Of a DNA stretch of 45,815 bases, positions 2,294-35,779 are shown one piece after another. Position numbers and translations under genes: made by a program. Below the pieces are notes generated by a model. That model was not told where the DNA came from and searched no databases. It saw nothing but the letters and a program-made list of their open reading frames with translations. The DNA is taken from IMG/VR virus record IMGVR_UViG_3300042996_000005, positions 1-45,815 of that record. One strand, given 5' to 3'. Source of the DNA: a virus. Positions within the stretch are counted from its first letter, which is position 1. Each line of letters opens with the position of its first letter.

Positions 2294-3217
2294 TTATCCC
2301 TTACTCTTCAGCGAAGTAGAAGCACTGCTGATTGTGCTTGTGTGATTTTCCGTGGCGTTCATCGCGGCGCGCAGATCGTCCGTGGTTACGTGGGCATATT
2401 TCAGCGTGGTTTTCATGTCTTCATGGCCTAACAGGTCTTTGACCAAGCGCAGGTTGCCAGTGGCGCGCAAAAGCCTCGTGGCGCATGTATGACGCAGGTC
2501 ATGGAAATGCAGGTCGATGACCTTTGCATTTGCCACAGCGCGGCGGAAGGTGATCTTGAGCCCTTCCTTCTCGATAGGCAGGCGCGACCCACGCGGCGCG
2601 TGATCGGCTCGCTGTACGATGTAGGTAAACACTGCTTCGTCAGGCTGGGGAATGCGGTCTGTGATAGCTCGCTCGGCGGTCAGCAACGCATGCAGCCCTG
2701 AGCTGATAGGTACGGTGCGTGTTTTACTACCCTTACCCTTGATCCGCATCTGGCGGTTATTCAGATCTACGCTGCGCCAGGTCAGGTCCAAGCACTCTTG
2801 CATGCGACAGCCCGACAGCAGCGCAAAGCGAACGATGGCGTGATAGTCAGGGCGTAGGGCGGCGAACAACGCGGCCTCTTCATCGTCCTGCATTTCCCGC
2901 ACACGTTCTTCCGGCTCCCGAAGCATGTGGCTGCGCCAGTCGATCTGGCGAACATCTACGCCCCATGTCTTGCGAGCCCTGGTCATCACCTTGCGTATGA
3001 CCTCTGTCACCGTCCGGTTGACCGACGCTGGCGCCAAACCCTCCCCACGCCTCTTTGCTACAGCCTTGGCTATGTCGGCATCAGTGATGGCTGACAGCAG
3101 CCTATGCCGCCCTAGCTGGTTTTCTACCCAGCCAAGGTTCACGAGCGTAGTCCCGCTGTTGACGTGATGCTGCCCGACCTCGGAATAATAGAGGGCGGTT
3201 GCATCCCGCACTGTCAT
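2294..3217 (-). CDS. int: Phage tyrosine integrase
   Basis: A 307-residue tyrosine recombinase, predicted to integrate and excise the prophage at the adjacent tRNA-Pro fragment. Residues about 1-95 form a SAM-like core-binding domain. The catalytic domain shows the full set: R138 in SGCR, a lysine in GKGSK (about 162-165), H239 and R242 in HDLRH, H265 in LLGH, and the nucleophile Y274 in KYAHV. The ATG overlaps the stop of the upstream helix-turn-helix gene (ATGA), so the two are probably coupled. It is the last gene of the leftward operon. The short Ser/Thr-rich tail after Y274 is unremarkable. Confidence 0.96.
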   Translation of the reverse strand: MTVRDATALYYSEVGQHHVNSGTTLVNLGWVENQLGRHRLLSAITDADIAKAVAKRRGEGLAPASVNRTVTEVIRKVMTRARKTWGVDVRQIDWRSHMLREPEERVREMQDDEEAALFAALRPDYHAIVRFALLSGCRMQECLDLTWRSVDLNNRQMRIKGKGSKTRTVPISSGLHALLTAERAITDRIPQPDEAVFTYIVQRADHAPRGSRLPIEKEGLKITFRRAVANAKVIDLHFHDLRHTCATRLLRATGNLRLVKDLLGHEDMKTTLKYAHVTTDDLRAAMNATENHTSTISSASTSLKSKG

Positions 3218-18511: not shown

Positions 18512-19081
18512 ATGGCGATCTACGTTGTTCGAACGAATATCAAAGCCGAGGATAAAGCCGAGCGCAACCTCCGCAATGCTGGTTTTGCGACCTATGCCCC
18601 ATGGCAGCGCTTCGAGCGGCTCAACCGGCGCAAGCGTATTTGGGTGCAGCACGAGATGCGCCTAGCTCCCCGCTACATCTTCCTTGATACCGGCGCGCTG
18701 AGCCGCGAACAGACGCCGTGGGGCATTATCCGGGGCTGTGAGGGCGTGGAACATGTTCTCGGCTACCAAGGGCTTCCCCTGCCGCTCAGCGGAGGCGAGG
18801 AGAAGGCACTGAACGCCATCAAGGCAGCAGAACGGGATTTTGCGTTTGATGAGACACGCGCCGGAAAGCTCCATCGTCGCGAGATCGGTAAGACCAAGCG
18901 CGAAACAACCCGCATGAAATTTCCCGTTGGCTCCAAGGTACGGATCAACGAAGGCCCGTTCATAGCGTTCGGCGGCGAAGTCACCAATGTTAACGGGCGC
19001 GGGCATTTGTTGGTAATGACGGAAATCTTCGGGCGCTTGACGGCTGTGGAGATGGAGCCGGGGCAAGTAGAAGCTGCTTGA
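18512..19081 (+). CDS. Phage NusG-like transcription elongation/antitermination protein
   Basis: A 189-residue protein with an N-terminal NusG-type NGN domain (about 1-110: MAIYVVRTNIKAEDKAERNL, YAPWQRFERLNRRKRIW, LAPRYIFLD) and a C-terminal KOW domain (about 137-187: FPVGSKVRINEGPFIAFGGE, then a VEMEP end). NusG-family proteins bind the clamp of RNA polymerase; specialised paralogues such as RfaH act at particular operons. As the last gene of the rightward early operon, just before the late genes, it occupies the place of a Q-type antiterminator. That role is inference; the fold is clear. Confidence 0.85.
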   Translation: MAIYVVRTNIKAEDKAERNLRNAGFATYAPWQRFERLNRRKRIWVQHEMRLAPRYIFLDTGALSREQTPWGIIRGCEGVEHVLGYQGLPLPLSGGEEKALNAIKAAERDFAFDETRAGKLHRREIGKTKRETTRMKFPVGSKVRINEGPFIAFGGEVTNVNGRGHLLVMTEIFGRLTAVEMEPGQVEAA

Positions 19082-20486: not shown

Positions 20487-20765
20487 ATGGCAGAACGTGG
20501 CGGCAAACGCCCGGGCGCCGGTCGCAAGCCAGGGGCAATCACCAAGCGCACACAGGAGGCCACGGCGGCAATCCTAGCCAGCGGTCTAACACCGTTGGAC
20601 TACATGCTTGGCATCCTGCGCGATCAGACAAAGAACTCAGACGAGCGGTTTGAAGCGGCCAAAGCCGCTGCGCCGTATGTACATCCAAAGCTAGCGGCTA
20701 TCGACCATAGCGGCATCCTAGCCATTGTCCCGCATGAGGACGCACTCGATGAGCTTGACGACTAG
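20487..20765 (+). CDS. terS: Terminase small subunit-like protein
   Basis: A 92-residue protein starting MAERGGKRPGAGRKPGAITK, the opening typical of one group of small terminase subunits and terminase-associated proteins, followed by helices. The small subunit recognises the packaging site and recruits the large subunit. It overlaps terL by 17 bases. The protein is shorter than many small terminases (about 150), so it may be a reduced version; the call rests on motif plus position. Confidence 0.7.
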   Translation: MAERGGKRPGAGRKPGAITKRTQEATAAILASGLTPLDYMLGILRDQTKNSDERFEAAKAAAPYVHPKLAAIDHSGILAIVPHEDALDELDD

Positions 20766-22305
20766 GGAGAAGGCGATCAGGCGCCGGCTGCGCGACGACT
20801 ACCCCCACTACAGCGCTAAGTGCCTAAAGATCAGATCCAAGAGCGGGGCGATTGAACCGTTCAGCCTCAACCCCGCGCAGTTGTATCTGCATGGGAAACT
20901 AGAGGCTCAGAAGGAAGCGACTGGCAAGGTTAGAGCCTTGGTCCTCAAAGGGCGTCAACAAGGTATCTCCACCTATATCGGTGGTCGGTTTTACCATCGC
21001 ACCACGCATAACAAAGGTTTGCGCTGTTTCATCCTGACCCATGAGCAGGAAGCCACGAACAACCTGTTCGGCATGGTTGAGCGGTATCACGAGCATTGCC
21101 CCTGTCTGGTGAAACCATCAACTGGCGCTTCCAATGCCAAGGAACTCTATTTTGACCGCCTAGAAAGTGGTTACGCGGTCGGCACAGCCGGTTCTAAGGC
21201 AGTCGGGCGGTCACAAACCGTTCAATTGTTCCACGGCTCTGAGGTAGCCTTCTGGCCTAACGCACCGACCCACTTTGCAGGCGTCGTGCAAGCCATCCCT
21301 GATCTGCCAGGCACAGAGATAATCCTCGAAAGCACGGCTAACGGCGTCGGCGGTGAGTTCCACGAACGCTGGCAGCAGGCAGAGGCCGGCATAGGCGACT
21401 ACATTGCGGTGTTCGTGCCTTGGTTTTGGCAACCAGAATATGCCCGTCCAGTGCCACAGGGCTTTGCCCTTGACGACGACGAAACGATCTACGCCGAAGC
21501 CTATGGGCTCAATCTCGATCAGATGGTTTGGCGGCGCAACAAGATTGCCGAACTGAAAGACCCGATGCTGTTTATGCAGGAATATCCTGCCACCGCTGCG
21601 GAGGCTTTCCAGATGACGGGCCACGACAGCTTTATAGCGCCTGAACTCATTATCAAGGCCCGCAAGAACAAGGCTCCTGCCTCTGGCGCCCTAGTGATCG
21701 GGTACGATCCTGCATGGAAGGGATCGGACCGGCACTCAATGGCATTTCGGCAAGGGCGCAAACTGCACAAGGTGGAAAGCAAGGCCAAGCTTGACACCAT
21801 GCAGGGAGCCGGTTGGGCGAAATGGGCTTTAGACTACCACAAGCCAGCCCGAATGTTCATCGACGTAGGTGGTGTAGGGGCTGGGGTTTATGACCGGCTG
21901 GTGGAGATGGGTTACGGCGATGTTGTTCGAGCCGTGAACTTTGGCTCCTCGCCCTTTGAGCCCGCCCCAATGGACCATAAGGGTAGACCCAGTGGCGGGC
22001 CTTTGAACCGTCGCGCGGAAATGTGGATGAAGTCCAAGGAATGGCTGCAGGACGTAGCTGGTGTGGACATTCCAGACGAAGACAGCCTCCAAGCCGACGC
22101 CTGCTCGCCAGGTTACAAGTACGACAGCCACACACGTCTGCAGCTTGAGAGCAAAGACGACATGCGATCACGGGGCGTCCGATCCCCAGACGAGTGGGAC
22201 GCTGTAGCGCTCACCTTTGCAGAGCCTGTCTTCATGTACGAAGACGACGACTATCAAGACTACGACAACCGCAACCAATCCCGTTCCAGCACCACAGGTT
22301 ACTAG
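20749..22305 (+). CDS. terL: Terminase large subunit
   Basis: A 518-residue packaging motor protein. The ATPase domain shows a deviant Walker A LKGRQQGIS (about 66-74), an acidic HGSEVAFW (about 162-169) and the coupling motif ESTANG (194-199). The C-terminal RNase H-like nuclease has D320 in IGYDPAWKG, D372 in FIDVGG and a late Asp in DEWDAVAL. It translocates DNA into the prohead through the portal. I placed the start at 20749 (GAGGA upstream) within the end of terS. The ATG of the portal gene follows the stop directly. Confidence 0.92.
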   Translation: MSLTTREKAIRRRLRDDYPHYSAKCLKIRSKSGAIEPFSLNPAQLYLHGKLEAQKEATGKVRALVLKGRQQGISTYIGGRFYHRTTHNKGLRCFILTHEQEATNNLFGMVERYHEHCPCLVKPSTGASNAKELYFDRLESGYAVGTAGSKAVGRSQTVQLFHGSEVAFWPNAPTHFAGVVQAIPDLPGTEIILESTANGVGGEFHERWQQAEAGIGDYIAVFVPWFWQPEYARPVPQGFALDDDETIYAEAYGLNLDQMVWRRNKIAELKDPMLFMQEYPATAAEAFQMTGHDSFIAPELIIKARKNKAPASGALVIGYDPAWKGSDRHSMAFRQGRKLHKVESKAKLDTMQGAGWAKWALDYHKPARMFIDVGGVGAGVYDRLVEMGYGDVVRAVNFGSSPFEPAPMDHKGRPSGGPLNRRAEMWMKSKEWLQDVAGVDIPDEDSLQADACSPGYKYDSHTRLQLESKDDMRSRGVRSPDEWDAVALTFAEPVFMYEDDDYQDYDNRNQSRSSTTGY

Positions 22306-24498
22306 ATGATTGATGCTGTGATAACGGATGTGCCGCAGGTCGGCACGGGCATGGTTACGCCCGATGAAGACGTGGATGTTGTTGTGGCTGATGCCGCGGC
22401 GACCAATGACATGTCCGGTGAGCAGATCCTGTTTGCTATCATGTCCATGCCGAACATTGCTGAAGCGCTCCTAGATGCCCCAGAAGGCGGCAAGAACAGC
22501 CTTTCGGCCATCTCGGCTCGTGCTGTCGAGGACTACGAGCTAGACGAGTCCAGCCGCAAGGAATGGCTCAAGAAGAACGAAGAATCTTTGAAACTGGCTA
22601 TGTTGGTTTCAGAGGAAAAGAACTACCCGTTCGAAAACGCAGCGAACATCAAGTTTCCCCTGCTGACCACAGCAGCGCTGCAGTTCAATGCGCGCGCCTA
22701 TCCCGCCATTGTGCCGCCTGACCGTGTGGTCAAGGTCAAGGTGCGGGGCAGGGATGAGCAGGGTCTCAAAGCCGCCCGTGCTGATCGTGTTGGCGAGTTC
22801 ATGTCGGACCAACTCCTTCAGGGCATGCCTGAATGGGAAGAGGACACCGACCGCATCCTGATCATGCTTCCAATCGTTGGCAGCGTGTTCCGCAAGTTCT
22901 GGTATGACCCGGGGCTAAAGCGCAATCGGTCTAAGCTGGTGACGGCTGCGGACTTTGTAGTAAATTTCCGCGCCTCGTCCCTTGAGGCCACACCGCGGTT
23001 CACTGAAAAGCTGCGCCTCTATCCATACGAGATCGAAGAGCGCATTCGTGATGGTCGGTTCTTGGCTTTTGAGTATCAAAACACCGGCTCAGACGATGAG
23101 CAGAAGACCAATGCATCGGGCGAGAACGCCACTCAGACCGATGATGACGGCCCGCAGTTATTCCTTGAGCAGCATCGGCTGCTTGATCTGGACGAAGACG
23201 GCTATCCCGAGCCCTACATCGTCACGATACACAAGGCGACCGCTAAGGTTGTTCGCATCGTCGCCAACTACAACCAGGGCACAGTGACCATCGGCAATGA
23301 TGGCCGTGTCGCTGCCATTCGCCGTCAAGACTACTTCGTGCATTACCAGTTCATGCCCAACCCAGAAGGCGGGTTCTATGGCTTGGGCTTCGGCTGGCTG
23401 CTCTCCAGCACGAACGAGACCATCAATTCCACGCTGAACCAGCTGCTTGATGCGGGCCACATGGCCAACATGCAGGGCGGGCTGATTTCATCGGTGCTTG
23501 GCGTCAAAGAAAAGAACATCAAGCTTGAGCGTGGCGAGTGGCGCATCCTGAACACCACTGTGCCGCTCAATCAGGCAGTCATGCCAATGACCTACAAGGA
23601 GCCGAGCGCGGTTCTGTTCAACCTCCTAGGCCTCATGATCGACATGGGCAAGGAAGTGGCCGCGGTTAAGGACGTGCTCACCGGTGAAGGGCAGGGCAAG
23701 AACGCCTCGCCAACCACGACACTGGCGCTTATTGAGCAGGGCCTGCAGGTCTTCACCTCAATCTACAAGCGCATTCACCGGACGCTGAAGCATGAATTCG
23801 GCATCTGCGGCCGGCTCAATGCGGCGAACGTCACGCCAGAGGAATACACCGCGTTCTTTGACGATCCGAGCGTCAACCCGCAATCCGACTTCAATGAAGC
23901 TGACATGGACGTGCTGCCAGTTTCTGATCCGCAGTCCGTGACCAAGATGCAGAAGCTGGCCAAGGCTGAGATGATTATGAACGTGGGTGGCAATGACCCG
24001 CTGTTCAACCCAATCGAGGTCCGCAAGCGCTTCCTTGAAGCCGCAGACGTTGAGGACGTGGAGAAGCTGCTTGTTCAGCCTCCGCAGCCGGATCCAGAAG
24101 AAGCCGCGTTCATGGACGCCGTGAAAAAGCTTGGACTCCAGCAGCAGGTTGCCGAGATCAACAACAAGATCGCAGACACGCTCAAGAAGATTGCCGACGC
24201 CGAAGCCGCCGAAGAGGGCATGCAGATGTCCTACTATGACTTGGTCATGAAGGCGCTAGGCCAGGAACATGCCATGGAGCAGGAAATTGCCAACCAAGCA
24301 CCCCCCGTTGGAGCTGGAGGAATTCCAGATATGGCTGGCCAATCCGATAACGGAGCGGGTGCTGGCCTATTACCGCCAGCGGGCATTGGAGGAGGCGGAA
24401 TCGACCCAACAGCGCCTGTACCAGTCGGCGGGCCAGCTATCGGGCCTGGAATGGGCCAGCCTGCAAGCCCAAGCGGCATATCTCAAGGGGCACTGTGA
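22306..24498 (+). CDS. P22-like portal protein
   Basis: A 730-residue portal, the dodecameric ring through which DNA enters and leaves the head. Recognisable stretches include ENAANIKFPLLTTAALQFNA and LTGEGQGKNASPTTTLALIE, and the length suits the P22 gp1 group. The C-terminal 75 residues change to Gly/Pro/Ala-rich low complexity (GAGGIPDMAGQSDNGAGAG), precisely where a second gene starts in another frame at 24269, so this tail looks shaped by overprinting. Confidence 0.9.
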   Translation: MIDAVITDVPQVGTGMVTPDEDVDVVVADAAATNDMSGEQILFAIMSMPNIAEALLDAPEGGKNSLSAISARAVEDYELDESSRKEWLKKNEESLKLAMLVSEEKNYPFENAANIKFPLLTTAALQFNARAYPAIVPPDRVVKVKVRGRDEQGLKAARADRVGEFMSDQLLQGMPEWEEDTDRILIMLPIVGSVFRKFWYDPGLKRNRSKLVTAADFVVNFRASSLEATPRFTEKLRLYPYEIEERIRDGRFLAFEYQNTGSDDEQKTNASGENATQTDDDGPQLFLEQHRLLDLDEDGYPEPYIVTIHKATAKVVRIVANYNQGTVTIGNDGRVAAIRRQDYFVHYQFMPNPEGGFYGLGFGWLLSSTNETINSTLNQLLDAGHMANMQGGLISSVLGVKEKNIKLERGEWRILNTTVPLNQAVMPMTYKEPSAVLFNLLGLMIDMGKEVAAVKDVLTGEGQGKNASPTTTLALIEQGLQVFTSIYKRIHRTLKHEFGICGRLNAANVTPEEYTAFFDDPSVNPQSDFNEADMDVLPVSDPQSVTKMQKLAKAEMIMNVGGNDPLFNPIEVRKRFLEAADVEDVEKLLVQPPQPDPEEAAFMDAVKKLGLQQQVAEINNKIADTLKKIADAEAAEEGMQMSYYDLVMKALGQEHAMEQEIANQAPPVGAGGIPDMAGQSDNGAGAGLLPPAGIGGGGIDPTAPVPVGGPAIGPGMGQPASPSGISQGAL

Positions 24499-24556
24499 GG
24501 CCTTCGCAGAGGTTGCTGCCGTGACTTTCGAGGAAATCCAAGAGGAAGACGAATGA
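24269..24556 (+). CDS. Conserved small head-module protein overlapping the portal
   Basis: A 95-residue protein whose central region ELEEFQIWLANPITERVLAY and tail LKGHCEAFAEVAAVTFEEIQ read as a genuine amphipathic helical protein. The first 230 bases overlap the portal gene in another frame. A CAGGA lies close to the ATG; internal TTG starts are possible. It overlaps the Acb2-like gene by four bases. Proteins of this appearance occur after portals in related phages; the function is unknown. Confidence 0.65.
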   Translation: MPWSRKLPTKHPPLELEEFQIWLANPITERVLAYYRQRALEEAESTQQRLYQSAGQLSGLEWASLQAQAAYLKGHCEAFAEVAAVTFEEIQEEDE

Positions 24557-24777
24557 CAACCCTGCATCCGACCACATTTGAATACCTGCAGCCGACTGAC
24601 GCGCAAAAGTCGTCCATGATGGTACTCCGTTCGGCCTCTCAAGAATACGCCGAACTAGTCGACTCCATGCTGCCTGACGGGCCGGATAAGACCTACGTGC
24701 TGCGCCGTATTCGTGAAACGGCCATGTGGATCAACGTCGCTGTCACCCGCGAAGCTGACGGGGCGCCGCGCGCATGA
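24553..24777 (+). CDS. Acb2/Tad1-like cyclic-nucleotide sponge
   Basis: A 74-residue protein with the pattern of the Acb2/Tad1 hairpin family: an initial F-x-Y (FEYLQPTDAQK), a helix KSSMMVLRSASQEYAELVDS, a P-rich turn, then the second helix VLRRIRETAMWINVAVTRE, which matches the family's alanine/tryptophan-rich closing helix. Acb2 forms hexamers that trap cyclic di- and trinucleotides and thereby block CBASS; some members also block Thoeris. The gene is coupled to both neighbours by four-base overlaps. The call is by motif recognition; ligand residues cannot be confirmed here. Confidence 0.68.
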   Translation: MTTLHPTTFEYLQPTDAQKSSMMVLRSASQEYAELVDSMLPDGPDKTYVLRRIRETAMWINVAVTREADGAPRA

Positions 24778-25094
24778 ACTCCACCGGCATCGTCCCAACT
24801 GAATTCAAGGTCATGATCCTCCCCAAAGAGGTGGAACAGGTAAGCAAGGGCGGCATCATCCTGTCCAGTCAGACTGTAGACGCTGAAAAGGCCATGACCA
24901 TCGAAGGCGAGATCGTCGCTGTCTCGCATCTGGCATTTACCTACGCCACCGAAGCCGAATGGGATGGCAAGAAGCCACGCCCCGGCCAACGTGTGATCTT
25001 CGCCAAGTATGCCGGCGTTCGGCACAAGGCAAAGGACGGGCAGGAATACCTGCTGGTCAACGACAAGGATGTCGTGGCAATAATTGAACAGTAG
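24774..25094 (+). CDS. GroES-like co-chaperonin
   Basis: A 106-residue Cpn10-fold protein: FKVMILPKEVEQVSKGGIIL matches the conserved opening of GroES, with a mobile-loop-like stretch at KGGIILSSQTVD, then EGEIVAVS, KPRPGQRVIFAKYAG and YLLVNDKDVVAII. Phage co-chaperonins (T4 gp31 type) replace or assist host GroES in folding capsid protein by GroEL. It lies 2.5 kb upstream of the capsid gene, which supports that role. It overlaps the Acb2-like gene by four bases. Confidence 0.85.
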   Translation: MNSTGIVPTEFKVMILPKEVEQVSKGGIILSSQTVDAEKAMTIEGEIVAVSHLAFTYATEAEWDGKKPRPGQRVIFAKYAGVRHKAKDGQEYLLVNDKDVVAIIEQ

Positions 25095-25529: not shown

Positions 25530-26423
25530 ATGACCGATACGCAAGTGAGTGGAGAAGCCACCACAGTCGAGCCGACCACCACCGCCCCAGAGGCGGTTTT
25601 TTCATCCCCGGAGACTGGCGCAGCTGATCAGTCTCAAGAACGAAACTACGAAGCCGAAGCCCGCGATATGGGTTGGGTGCCAGAGACTGAGTTCAAGGGC
25701 GACAAGAAGCCCCTCAAGTTCCTGGATGCCAAGGAGTTCGTAGAGCGCGGCGAAACGGTTCTGCCGTTCGTGCAGCGCGAAAACAAGCGGCTCAAGGATG
25801 AACTATCCAAGCGGGACAAGGATTTCGACACCCGCATTGAGAAACTGACCAAGGCGACGGAAGCCACGCTCAAGAAGCAGCGTGAGGATTATGATCGGCA
25901 ACTTTCCACTCTCGCAAGCCAGCGTGAAGCAGCGCTAGACAAGGGCGACGGCGCGGAAGTCCGCAAGATTGAACGGCAGATCAACGAGGCCAAGGCCAAT
26001 GCGCCCCAGGTGGAAGACCTCGCCCCGGCCAAAGTAGAGCCTACCTCCGACGCACCAGATGCTGTCCTTGCCAAGTGGCAGGAGACAAACAAATGGTATG
26101 GCACCGACGACACACTGACTGAAGCCGCCATCGGCATCAGCCAGCGTTTGTTGATGCAAAACCCCAGCATCACGATGGAGGAAAATCTCCTTCGAACAGA
26201 TGCAGCCCTGAAGGAGCGGTTCCCGCTTCGGTTTGGCGGCAAGACGGGCGCGAATGCGCATGCGCCTGTGGACAGCGGCGGCGATCCAAAGCCGTCTGAA
26301 GGAAGCAGCAAAACCCCACTTTTCGACCGGCTTCCCAAGGAAGCCAAGGCACTTGCGGAGCAAGCCGTGAAGGACGGCATCTACAAGACCAAGGAAGAAT
26401 GGGCGCGTGTCTACAACAGTTAA
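25530..26423 (+). CDS. Scaffolding-type protein
   Basis: A 297-residue acidic protein lacking cysteine. The first 40 residues are Thr/Pro/Glu-rich, followed by a small domain (ARDMGWVPETEFKGDKKPLK) and a long coiled coil (about 85-160). The C-terminal end is helical (LAEQAVKDGIYKTKEEWARV). Composition, coiled coil and position between the portal and the capsid genes fit a capsid scaffolding protein, which guides prohead assembly and is then removed. I placed the start at the ATG of 25530 after GAGGA. Confidence 0.75.
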   Translation: MTDTQVSGEATTVEPTTTAPEAVFSSPETGAADQSQERNYEAEARDMGWVPETEFKGDKKPLKFLDAKEFVERGETVLPFVQRENKRLKDELSKRDKDFDTRIEKLTKATEATLKKQREDYDRQLSTLASQREAALDKGDGAEVRKIERQINEAKANAPQVEDLAPAKVEPTSDAPDAVLAKWQETNKWYGTDDTLTEAAIGISQRLLMQNPSITMEENLLRTDAALKERFPLRFGGKTGANAHAPVDSGGDPKPSEGSSKTPLFDRLPKEAKALAEQAVKDGIYKTKEEWARVYNS

Positions 26424-27574: not shown

Positions 27575-28486
27575 ATGACTGGCGTTATTACCACTGGCAA
27601 CCATCCCAAGCTCCTTTGGCCTGGGCTGCATGCTCTCTTCGGCACTACCTACGACGATATTCCCCGCCGCTATCAGGACATCTTCCGTGTGGAGCAGTCC
27701 GACAAGGCTTACGAGGAAATCGTTGAGCTGTCCGGCTTCGGTCTTGCACCGATCAAGGCAGAAGGCGCTTCCATCGTCTATGACTCGACCTCTCAGGGTC
27801 CGACATCGCGTTTCACTAACGTGGTCTATGGCCTGGGCTTCATTGAAACCCGTGAAAGCGTCGAAGACAACCAGTACAAGGGCCGCGCTACCCAGCGTAC
27901 CCGCGCACTGGCGCGCTCAATGAGCGTGACCAAGGAAACCGTGCATGCCAACATCCTGAACCGTGCCTTCAATACGCAGTACCTCGGCAGCGATGGCAAG
28001 CCGCTAATCGCAACCGACCACCCGACGCTTGGCGGCGCTCAGTCGAACAAACTGGCAGTGGACGCGGACTTGTCGGAAGCTTCTCTTGAAGATGCCCTGA
28101 TCCAAATCCGCACGGCCAAGGATCGTCGCGGCCTTCCGATCAACCTGTCGGGCATGAAGCTTGTGGTTGGGCCGGGTGAAGCTTTCAATGCCAAGCGCAT
28201 TCTAGGCTCCACTGGCCAGAACGATACGGCCAACAACGCAATCAATGCCATGAAGTCTATGGGCATGCTCCCGGGTGGCGTGATCGATTGGGTTTACCTG
28301 ACCGATCCCGATGCTTGGTTCATCCTCACCGATGTGGATCAGGGCCTGATCTCGTTCCAGCGTCGTGCGCTTGAGTTCGCCAAGGATGGCGATTTCGACA
28401 CCGACAATTTCAAGCACAAGGCGACTGAACGCTATGTGCCTGGCTGGGCCGACTGGCGCGCAGTGTTCGGATCTCAAGGGGCCTGA
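27575..28486 (+). CDS. Major capsid protein (HK97-fold type)
   Basis: A 303-residue protein starting MTGVITTGNHPKLLWPGLHA. An N-terminal segment (FGTTYDDIPRRYQDIFRVEQ) leads to a body with TDHPTLGGAQSNKLAVDADL, INLSGMKLVVGPGEAFNAKR and the C-terminal VPGWADWRAVFGSQGA. These are features of the gpT/HK97-like capsid group in alphaproteobacterial phages. It sits after scaffold and cement genes and is followed by a strong terminator, consistent with a highly expressed product. Confidence 0.85.
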   Translation: MTGVITTGNHPKLLWPGLHALFGTTYDDIPRRYQDIFRVEQSDKAYEEIVELSGFGLAPIKAEGASIVYDSTSQGPTSRFTNVVYGLGFIETRESVEDNQYKGRATQRTRALARSMSVTKETVHANILNRAFNTQYLGSDGKPLIATDHPTLGGAQSNKLAVDADLSEASLEDALIQIRTAKDRRGLPINLSGMKLVVGPGEAFNAKRILGSTGQNDTANNAINAMKSMGMLPGGVIDWVYLTDPDAWFILTDVDQGLISFQRRALEFAKDGDFDTDNFKHKATERYVPGWADWRAVFGSQGA

Positions 28487-34513: not shown

Positions 34514-35779
34514 ATGGCTATTCAGGCAATGGCGCTAGGCGTCCAAAATCCAGAGATCAACACAATGCAGGCGCTGGGCGCAGGCCAAGCCGCTCGGCAG
34601 TCTTTCGATATGAACAATATCGCCTTGGCTCAGAAGGGTCTGGAAACCGTCGCCCAAGTCGCACTTGGCGCCATGGGCGGTGATCTCAACGGCCAAGCCG
34701 ATCCGGCGCGGTTCGAAGAGGGTCTGAACTACCTCGCTCAGCAGGGGGTAAACGTTGAGCCGTTCCGCGGGCGTCCTGATCTAGCGCCGGTTGTCGCTCG
34801 CTCTGGCATGACCGCGCTACAGCAGCTGGCGCAGGCGCAGGATGAAAAGAACTACAATCTGGCATTGCAGAAATTTCAGCTGGACATTGAACAAGCAATG
34901 CAAGCCCCTGCGCCAACAGCCGACATGCAGAACTTCCAACTAGCCCAAGAAAACCCGGACTTTGCCGCTCATCTATCCAGTAAGGACGCGCCAAACCCAC
35001 CGGCACAAGTTGGCGAATACAACTTCTACGCGCAGCAGGAAAAAGCAGCGGGGCGTGAGCCTATGTCGTTCTTGGACTTCCAAGCGGCGCAAAAGGGCGG
35101 CGGGCTGACGGTTACAACCAACCCTGATGGGACAACAACGGTACAACAGGGCGGGTCAGGTGGCAAACTCACCGAAGCGCAAGGTAAAGATCTCGGCTTT
35201 TATACGCGCGGCGCGCAGGCTAACCTAGGGCTCGCAACGTTAGAAGGCCAACTCACCGACTTAGTGCAGCAGAATGCTGGAGCAGCGCCCCTGGGCTTGG
35301 GTAATTATATGCGCTCCCCGGAATTCCGCCAAGCCAAGGTTGAGGCTGATAACTTTCTGACGGCACTGCTTCGTAAAGACACAGGTGCTGCCATCACCGA
35401 TGGGGAGTTCAATCTCTATGGACCAATGTTCTTGCCGATCCCCGGTGATGACCCTGCAACTATTGCGCTGAAGCGGCAGAAGCGGGCAACGGCGCTCTTG
35501 GGCCTGCGTTCTGGGCTTGGTACTGCCGAGATAGTAGCGGCTTCTAATGAAGCCGCATTGGGCCTGCCAGACCCTGCGGTGGAGGCGGCGGGTCTTGAAG
35601 CCTCTCAGCCTGATCCTGCGCCAGCTGCACCAGTTACTGTAACTGGCGCTCCCGCTTCGGCGCCGATCTCAAGTGGAGGCGAACCAGCCAAGCCGATGAG
35701 CCAAGCCGATTACGATGCAATCCCATCAGGCGGTCTGTTCGTGGACCCTGACGATGGCCAAACCTACAGGAAGCCATAA
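34514..35779 (+). CDS. Ejection/internal virion protein
   Basis: A 421-residue protein starting MAIQAMALGVQNPEINTMQA, rich in Ala/Gln with long helices (about 1-140), then a Thr/Gly-rich linker and a globular C-terminal part. It ends FVDPDDGQTYRKP and shares a base with the next start. Position fits the second of the three P22 ejection proteins (gp20-like); sequence identity to P22 cannot be claimed. Confidence 0.65.
   Translation: MAIQAMALGVQNPEINTMQALGAGQAARQSFDMNNIALAQKGLETVAQVALGAMGGDLNGQADPARFEEGLNYLAQQGVNVEPFRGRPDLAPVVARSGMTALQQLAQAQDEKNYNLALQKFQLDIEQAMQAPAPTADMQNFQLAQENPDFAAHLSSKDAPNPPAQVGEYNFYAQQEKAAGREPMSFLDFQAAQKGGGLTVTTNPDGTTTVQQGGSGGKLTEAQGKDLGFYTRGAQANLGLATLEGQLTDLVQQNAGAAPLGLGNYMRSPEFRQAKVEADNFLTALLRKDTGAAITDGEFNLYGPMFLPIPGDDPATIALKRQKRATALLGLRSGLGTAEIVAASNEAALGLPDPAVEAAGLEASQPDPAPAAPVTVTGAPASAPISSGGEPAKPMSQADYDAIPSGGLFVDPDDGQTYRKP

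Follow-up and report, generated by a model that had tools for sequence, protein, structure and literature searches.

What does a small gene resembling the Acb2/Tad1 family of phage sponges do in the middle of a phage head operon, and does it belong there? The question is raised by an ORF of 225 bases at positions 24553-24777 (+) of a viral sequence of 45,815 nucleotides (IMG/VR record IMGVR_UViG_3300042996_000005), analysed over its full length and referred to here as the window. A first-pass annotation, made from the sequence alone, had described the product as an Acb2/Tad1-like cyclic-nucleotide sponge, and its coordinates for the gene are exact. The encoded protein has the sequence MTTLHPTTFEYLQPTDAQKSSMMVLRSASQEYAELVDSMLPDGPDKTYVLRRIRETAMWINVAVTREADGAPRA.

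Genomic setting

The window is a prophage-type genome, since it encodes a tyrosine integrase, an S24 repressor, and a NusG-like antiterminator; a DnaB helicase and head-closure and DNA-ejection proteins were also identified. Judged by this gene content, the source phage is temperate and probably podovirus-like. A DNA comparison with the phage collection returned no close record. The features relevant to the sponge gene are the following:

18512-19081 (+), NusG-type transcription antiterminator (Pfam NusG, E 7.9e-11; phrog_6386, E 8.5e-21)
20487-20765 (+), probable terminase small subunit (phrog_641, E 2.4e-6)
20725-22305 (+), terminase large subunit (phrog_2, E 1.4e-32)
22306-24498 (+), portal protein (phrog_1216, E 7e-15)
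24269-24556 (+), orfX, a small conserved gene (40-65% identical in the related contigs L090-L093, at the same position)
24536-24556 (+), junction ATCCAAGAGGAAGACGAATGA, with a ribosome-binding-like purine run and an ATGA stop/start overlap
24553-24777 (+), acb2-like sponge gene (product of 74 aa, with residues 11-66 forming the Acb2/Tad1 hairpin domain)
24774-25094 (+), GroES-type co-chaperonin (Pfam Cpn10, E 1.8e-12; phrog_3188, E 3.3e-14)
25530-26423 (+), presumed scaffold (assigned from its position and coiled-coil composition; matched by no family; conserved at 45-53% in L091-L093)
27575-28486 (+), major head protein (phrog_371, E 9.7e-19; Pfam Mu-like_gpT)

The ATG of the sponge gene overlaps the stop codon of orfX and its TGA overlaps the start of the GroES gene, in both cases as ATGA, and the genes from the probable terminase small subunit to the major head protein form a cluster on the + strand. 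The proposed location in the head operon and the proposed translational coupling therefore hold at the sequence level. The gene had been placed between the portal and scaffold genes; its site in the head operon stands, but its immediate neighbours are orfX upstream and the GroES gene downstream, and the presumed scaffold gene lies three genes further, with two small ORFs between the GroES and presumed scaffold genes. Promoter and terminator scans around the sponge gene gave no more than expected by chance.

Two neighbouring genes have features of their own. orfX overlaps the 3' end of the portal gene by about 230 nt in a different frame, where the portal tail is Gly/Pro-rich and of low complexity; the 40-65% conservation of orfX over this low-complexity tail suggests dual coding. 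The GroES-type co-chaperonin gene is conserved in the head operons of L091-L096.

Family membership

The sponge protein matches the Pfam family PF24729 (Acb2_Tad1_hairpin) over profile positions 2-58 of 58, with an E-value of 1.5e-7 and 32 bits, above the curated gathering cut-off of 27 bits. The profile search that had been proposed as a check thus returned the expected family, and a whole-genome search of the window agrees with the assignment. T4 Vs.4 and PaMx33 Acb2 match the same profile, and none of the 14 control genomes contained a match to the Acb2/Tad1 family. The best PHROG match is phrog_1454 (E 1.7e-9), which is labelled 'unknown function' and carries no functional label, and tblastn retrieved relatives with 49-76% identity and E-values down to 1e-34. 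No model matching the protein was found in NCBIfam or PADLOC. At the profile level, the protein is a true member of the Acb2/Tad1 family.

Searches against the PDB gave a more graded picture. Neither the protein alone (phmmer) nor a profile built from the 17 relatives closest to it retrieved an Acb2 from the PDB, both giving only weak matches to unrelated or designed proteins. A broader profile that included more distant phage hairpins matched PDB entry 9ptq, 'Acb2 homolog 43' (76 aa, six chains), with an E-value of 2.7e-6. 9ptq shares with the sponge protein its length and its design as a short hairpin standing alone, an F-x-[YH] start, an LP[DE]G..K[TS] turn, and a matching closing helix; however, pairwise identity is low, the profile match depends on the inclusion of the other phage hairpins, and the TRxxDGxPR tail of the sponge protein is not seen in the aligned part of 9ptq. 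Since the structure of this 76-residue protein has been solved, work on Acb2 homologs already extends to hairpins of exactly this compact size. The kind of protein is thus already known, and it is its address in the genome that is somewhat unusual.

Predicted fold

The AlphaFold2 model, based on an alignment of 17 relatives, has a mean pLDDT of 93.3 and is an antiparallel hairpin of two helices (residues 16-39 and 44-65). The F-x-Y start (F9-E10-Y11), the two-helix hairpin, and the closing helix (residues 49-64, VLRRIRETAMWINVAV) noted in the first-pass annotation are all present. In a Foldseek search of the PDB, T4 Vs.4 with cGAMP (7uq2) ranked second and third (TM 0.60-0.62, 0.62 by query; probability 0.72-0.80) and was the best meaningful match, followed at a lower score by PaMx33 Acb2 (8h2x, TM 0.57). 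The corresponding E-values, 1.4 and 8.9, are weak; a protein of only 74 residues and two helices can hardly be expected to give better ones. Among the predicted viral structures of BFVD, nearly all top matches are named Acb2/Tad1 hairpin proteins, the best of which superimpose at 0.7-0.8 Å across 56-57 residues with a probability of 1.00.

No additional domain was found in the 74 residues. A short N-terminal segment followed by two helices is the layout of Acb2 (PMC10419184, PMC12043709), the short N-terminal helix of Acb2 being a coil in the model. Tad1, which shares the C-terminal hairpin domain family, differs in having an N-terminal antiparallel beta sheet (PMC12043709); the model lacks this sheet, and only 15 coil residues precede its first helix. 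Because the Tad1 beta domain is missing, the modelled architecture is of the Acb2 type. In Tad1, the four-stranded N-terminal sheet and the helices together form the gcADPR pocket.

The known Acb2 proteins differ from the sponge protein in sequence, size, and gene position. The PaMx33/PaMx41 Acb2 (8h2x, 8ixz series) shares the PF24729 domain, the hairpin fold, and the aligned Y11 and K/R26, but is only about 18% identical and has 93 residues with longer helices; the hairpin of the sponge protein is about 10-20 residues shorter than PaMx33 Acb2. The PaMx41/33 gene is the last of a minus-strand block on the replication side, outside the head operon. T4 Vs.4 is 23% identical and has 88 residues; its gene, likewise outside the head operon, is surrounded by small non-structural genes in the vicinity of regB and denV.

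Conserved residues and selection

In 70 distinct relatives, P14, M22, D45-K46-T47, R51, R54, M58, W59, R66, G70, and P72 are unchanged, and F9, Y11, Q18, R26, N61, D69, and R73 are changed in at most 4%; Y11 is kept in 99% and R26 in 97%. Y11 is also invariant in a six-way alignment, where R26 falls over K26 of PaMx33 Acb2 and over a lysine of Vs.4. Y11 and K26 of PaMx33 Acb2 contact cGAMP in the cyclic-dinucleotide pocket, and the sponge protein has, by alignment, the aromatic and cationic residues of such a pocket. The model comparison suggested earlier for this protein thus gave both the hairpin and the alignment of Y11 and the cationic position 26 with PaMx33 Acb2, which together with the PF24729 match supports its identity as Acb2/Tad1-like.

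The first-pass annotation had singled out the closing helix as a departure from the typical pattern (AMWINVAVTR instead of AMWANAAIAR). This is ordinary variation: A, V, I, and C all occur at position 60 among the 70 relatives, whereas M58, W59, and N61 are kept, and since this position is free, AMWINVAV is no meaningful departure. The C-terminal tail TRxxDGxPR is invariant in the sponge clade and missing from the PaMx33 and T4 Acb2 proteins in the alignment, and the ligand could therefore differ. Comparison of the window gene with its relatives gave dN/dS values of about 0.1-0.34, with dS partly saturated, and the gene is, on this measure, under purifying selection.

Related head operons and genomic addresses of relatives

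Five contigs cover the head operon including the orfX-groES junction without carrying the sponge gene (0/5): L091 and L093, with 64-65% portal identity to the window, and L094-L096, with 42% portal identity, which are near-copies of one another. In all five, orfX leads straight to groES with an overlap of a few bases. The nearest relative, L090 (84%), ends short of this site. A further contig, L092, retains the 21 bases ATCCAAGAGGAAGACGAATGA at the end of orfX, but the sequence after them is unrelated and continues in frame into groES; the GroES of L092 thus has an extra N-terminal stretch of about 46 residues where the window has the sponge gene. Since related head operons lack it, the sponge gene is, as read from these sequences, accessory cargo set exactly into the orfX/groES stop-start junction, and the sponge-free relatives show that such cargo is removable.

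A profile scan of IMG/VR identified at least 268 relatives, which adds a well-supported and so far unannotated clade of compact Acb2-type sponges from metaviromes. In 27 of 84 loci, the sponge gene has a terminase, portal, or capsid homologue at most 3 kb away on its own strand. This number, obtained by tblastn with several seed proteins, is a lower bound that includes redundancy among related phages, and since many of the loci are related to one another, it does not tell how many independent events occurred; portal and terminase PHROG searches, run on 50 relatives, had only partial sensitivity. The arrangements include terminase-sponge-portal (L008 and kin, L039), portal-sponge (L012), and sponge-terminase (L001, L042, L079, L084), as well as a sponge gene near a capsid gene (L072). 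Other relatives are located in replication modules (L002, L006, L011, L022, L026, L051, L054), in five cases beside a P-loop NTPase or helicase (L006, L011, L022, L026, L054). A scan of genome contigs yielded one distant locus, in a Verrucomicrobia MAG.

Proposed function and alternatives

The evidence argues strongly for an Acb2-type hairpin sponge, carried as cargo in the head operon, that would withhold cyclic oligonucleotides from CBASS; by analogy with characterized family members, we consider this reading very probable. A short ORF encoding 74 residues may be spurious or decayed, but we give this practically no weight, as it is ruled out by conservation across at least 268 relatives; a dN/dS far below 1, the exact ATGA coupling at both ends, and the purine-rich, ribosome-binding-like run upstream also speak against it. 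The position of the gene inside the head operon and next to the GroES gene, together with the recurrence of packaging or head addresses in 27 of the 84 loci, would also fit a small protein of the head or of virion assembly, such as an assembly helper that acts with the neighbouring co-chaperonin, with a mere resemblance to Acb2. Such a structural role is highly unlikely because the related head operons L091 and L093-L096 do without the gene, so that it is not needed for the capsid; relatives in other phages also occur in replication modules, outside head modules, and the protein matches a curated sponge family. The structural reading was therefore rejected.

Less easily set aside, but in our view still unlikely, is a sponge that serves another signal, namely the cyclic oligoadenylates of type III CRISPR, the gcADPR of Thoeris, or a nucleotide yet to be named. 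Tad1 binds gcADPR, and cA3 is used by both CBASS and type III CRISPR (PMC12043709); the subfamily is also set apart by a shortened hairpin and by an invariant C-terminal tail peculiar to it. Against this, the sponge protein lacks the beta domain that, together with the helices, forms the gcADPR pocket of Tad1, and its conserved Y11 and R26 correspond to the cyclic-dinucleotide residues of Acb2.

For the Acb2-type sponge, the following mechanism can be proposed. Acb2 forms a homohexamer that offers three sites for dinucleotides and two for trinucleotides, and by analogy with the solved Acb2 proteins, monomers of the sponge protein would assemble into a hexamer. This hexamer would bind and withhold cyclic di- and trinucleotide alarm signals, and the effectors of CBASS, along with any further defence that relies on these signals, would stay off. 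The hexamer, this ligand range, and an anti-CBASS effect are the most likely properties of the protein on the strength of this analogy.

From the gene order we infer late expression and hence late protection, as the gene lies downstream of the NusG-type antiterminator and within the terminase-to-capsid cluster. After prophage induction, the sponge would be co-translated with the head proteins and appear together with capsid components. According to reviews, a phage deleted for acb2 escapes CBASS through mutations in its major capsid protein (PMC10419184), and a Thoeris sensor recognises the phage major head protein (PMC12043709). With sponge and head proteins made from one operon, shield and trigger may therefore rise together. 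If the timing of the sponge indeed matches capsid synthesis, this provides a simple, testable idea on the stage at which a phage has to be shielded from nucleotide-signalling defences. A wider proposal would be that the clade of 70-80 residues, marked by an invariant DKT turn and the TRxxDGxPR tail, forms a sponge sub-type that prefers a ligand of its own and has moved into packaging or head operons repeatedly, where its synthesis keeps pace with that of the capsid proteins triggering CBASS or Thoeris; this is speculative and, taken as a whole, rather unlikely.

Additional observations

The NusG-type antiterminator gene, shortly upstream of the packaging and head cluster, is a candidate regulator of the late operon. 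At the left end of the window, a CHASE2 adenylate/guanylate cyclase gene (1-2106) lies beside the integrase gene (2294-3217) and is probably host DNA flanking the prophage. Finally, in cyanophage S-2L (MW334946), an unannotated gene at L098:3974-4189 (about record positions 35199-35414) is a strong match to the Acb2/Tad1 hairpin family (PF24729, E 3.7e-19); it is flanked by tail genes in the late module.
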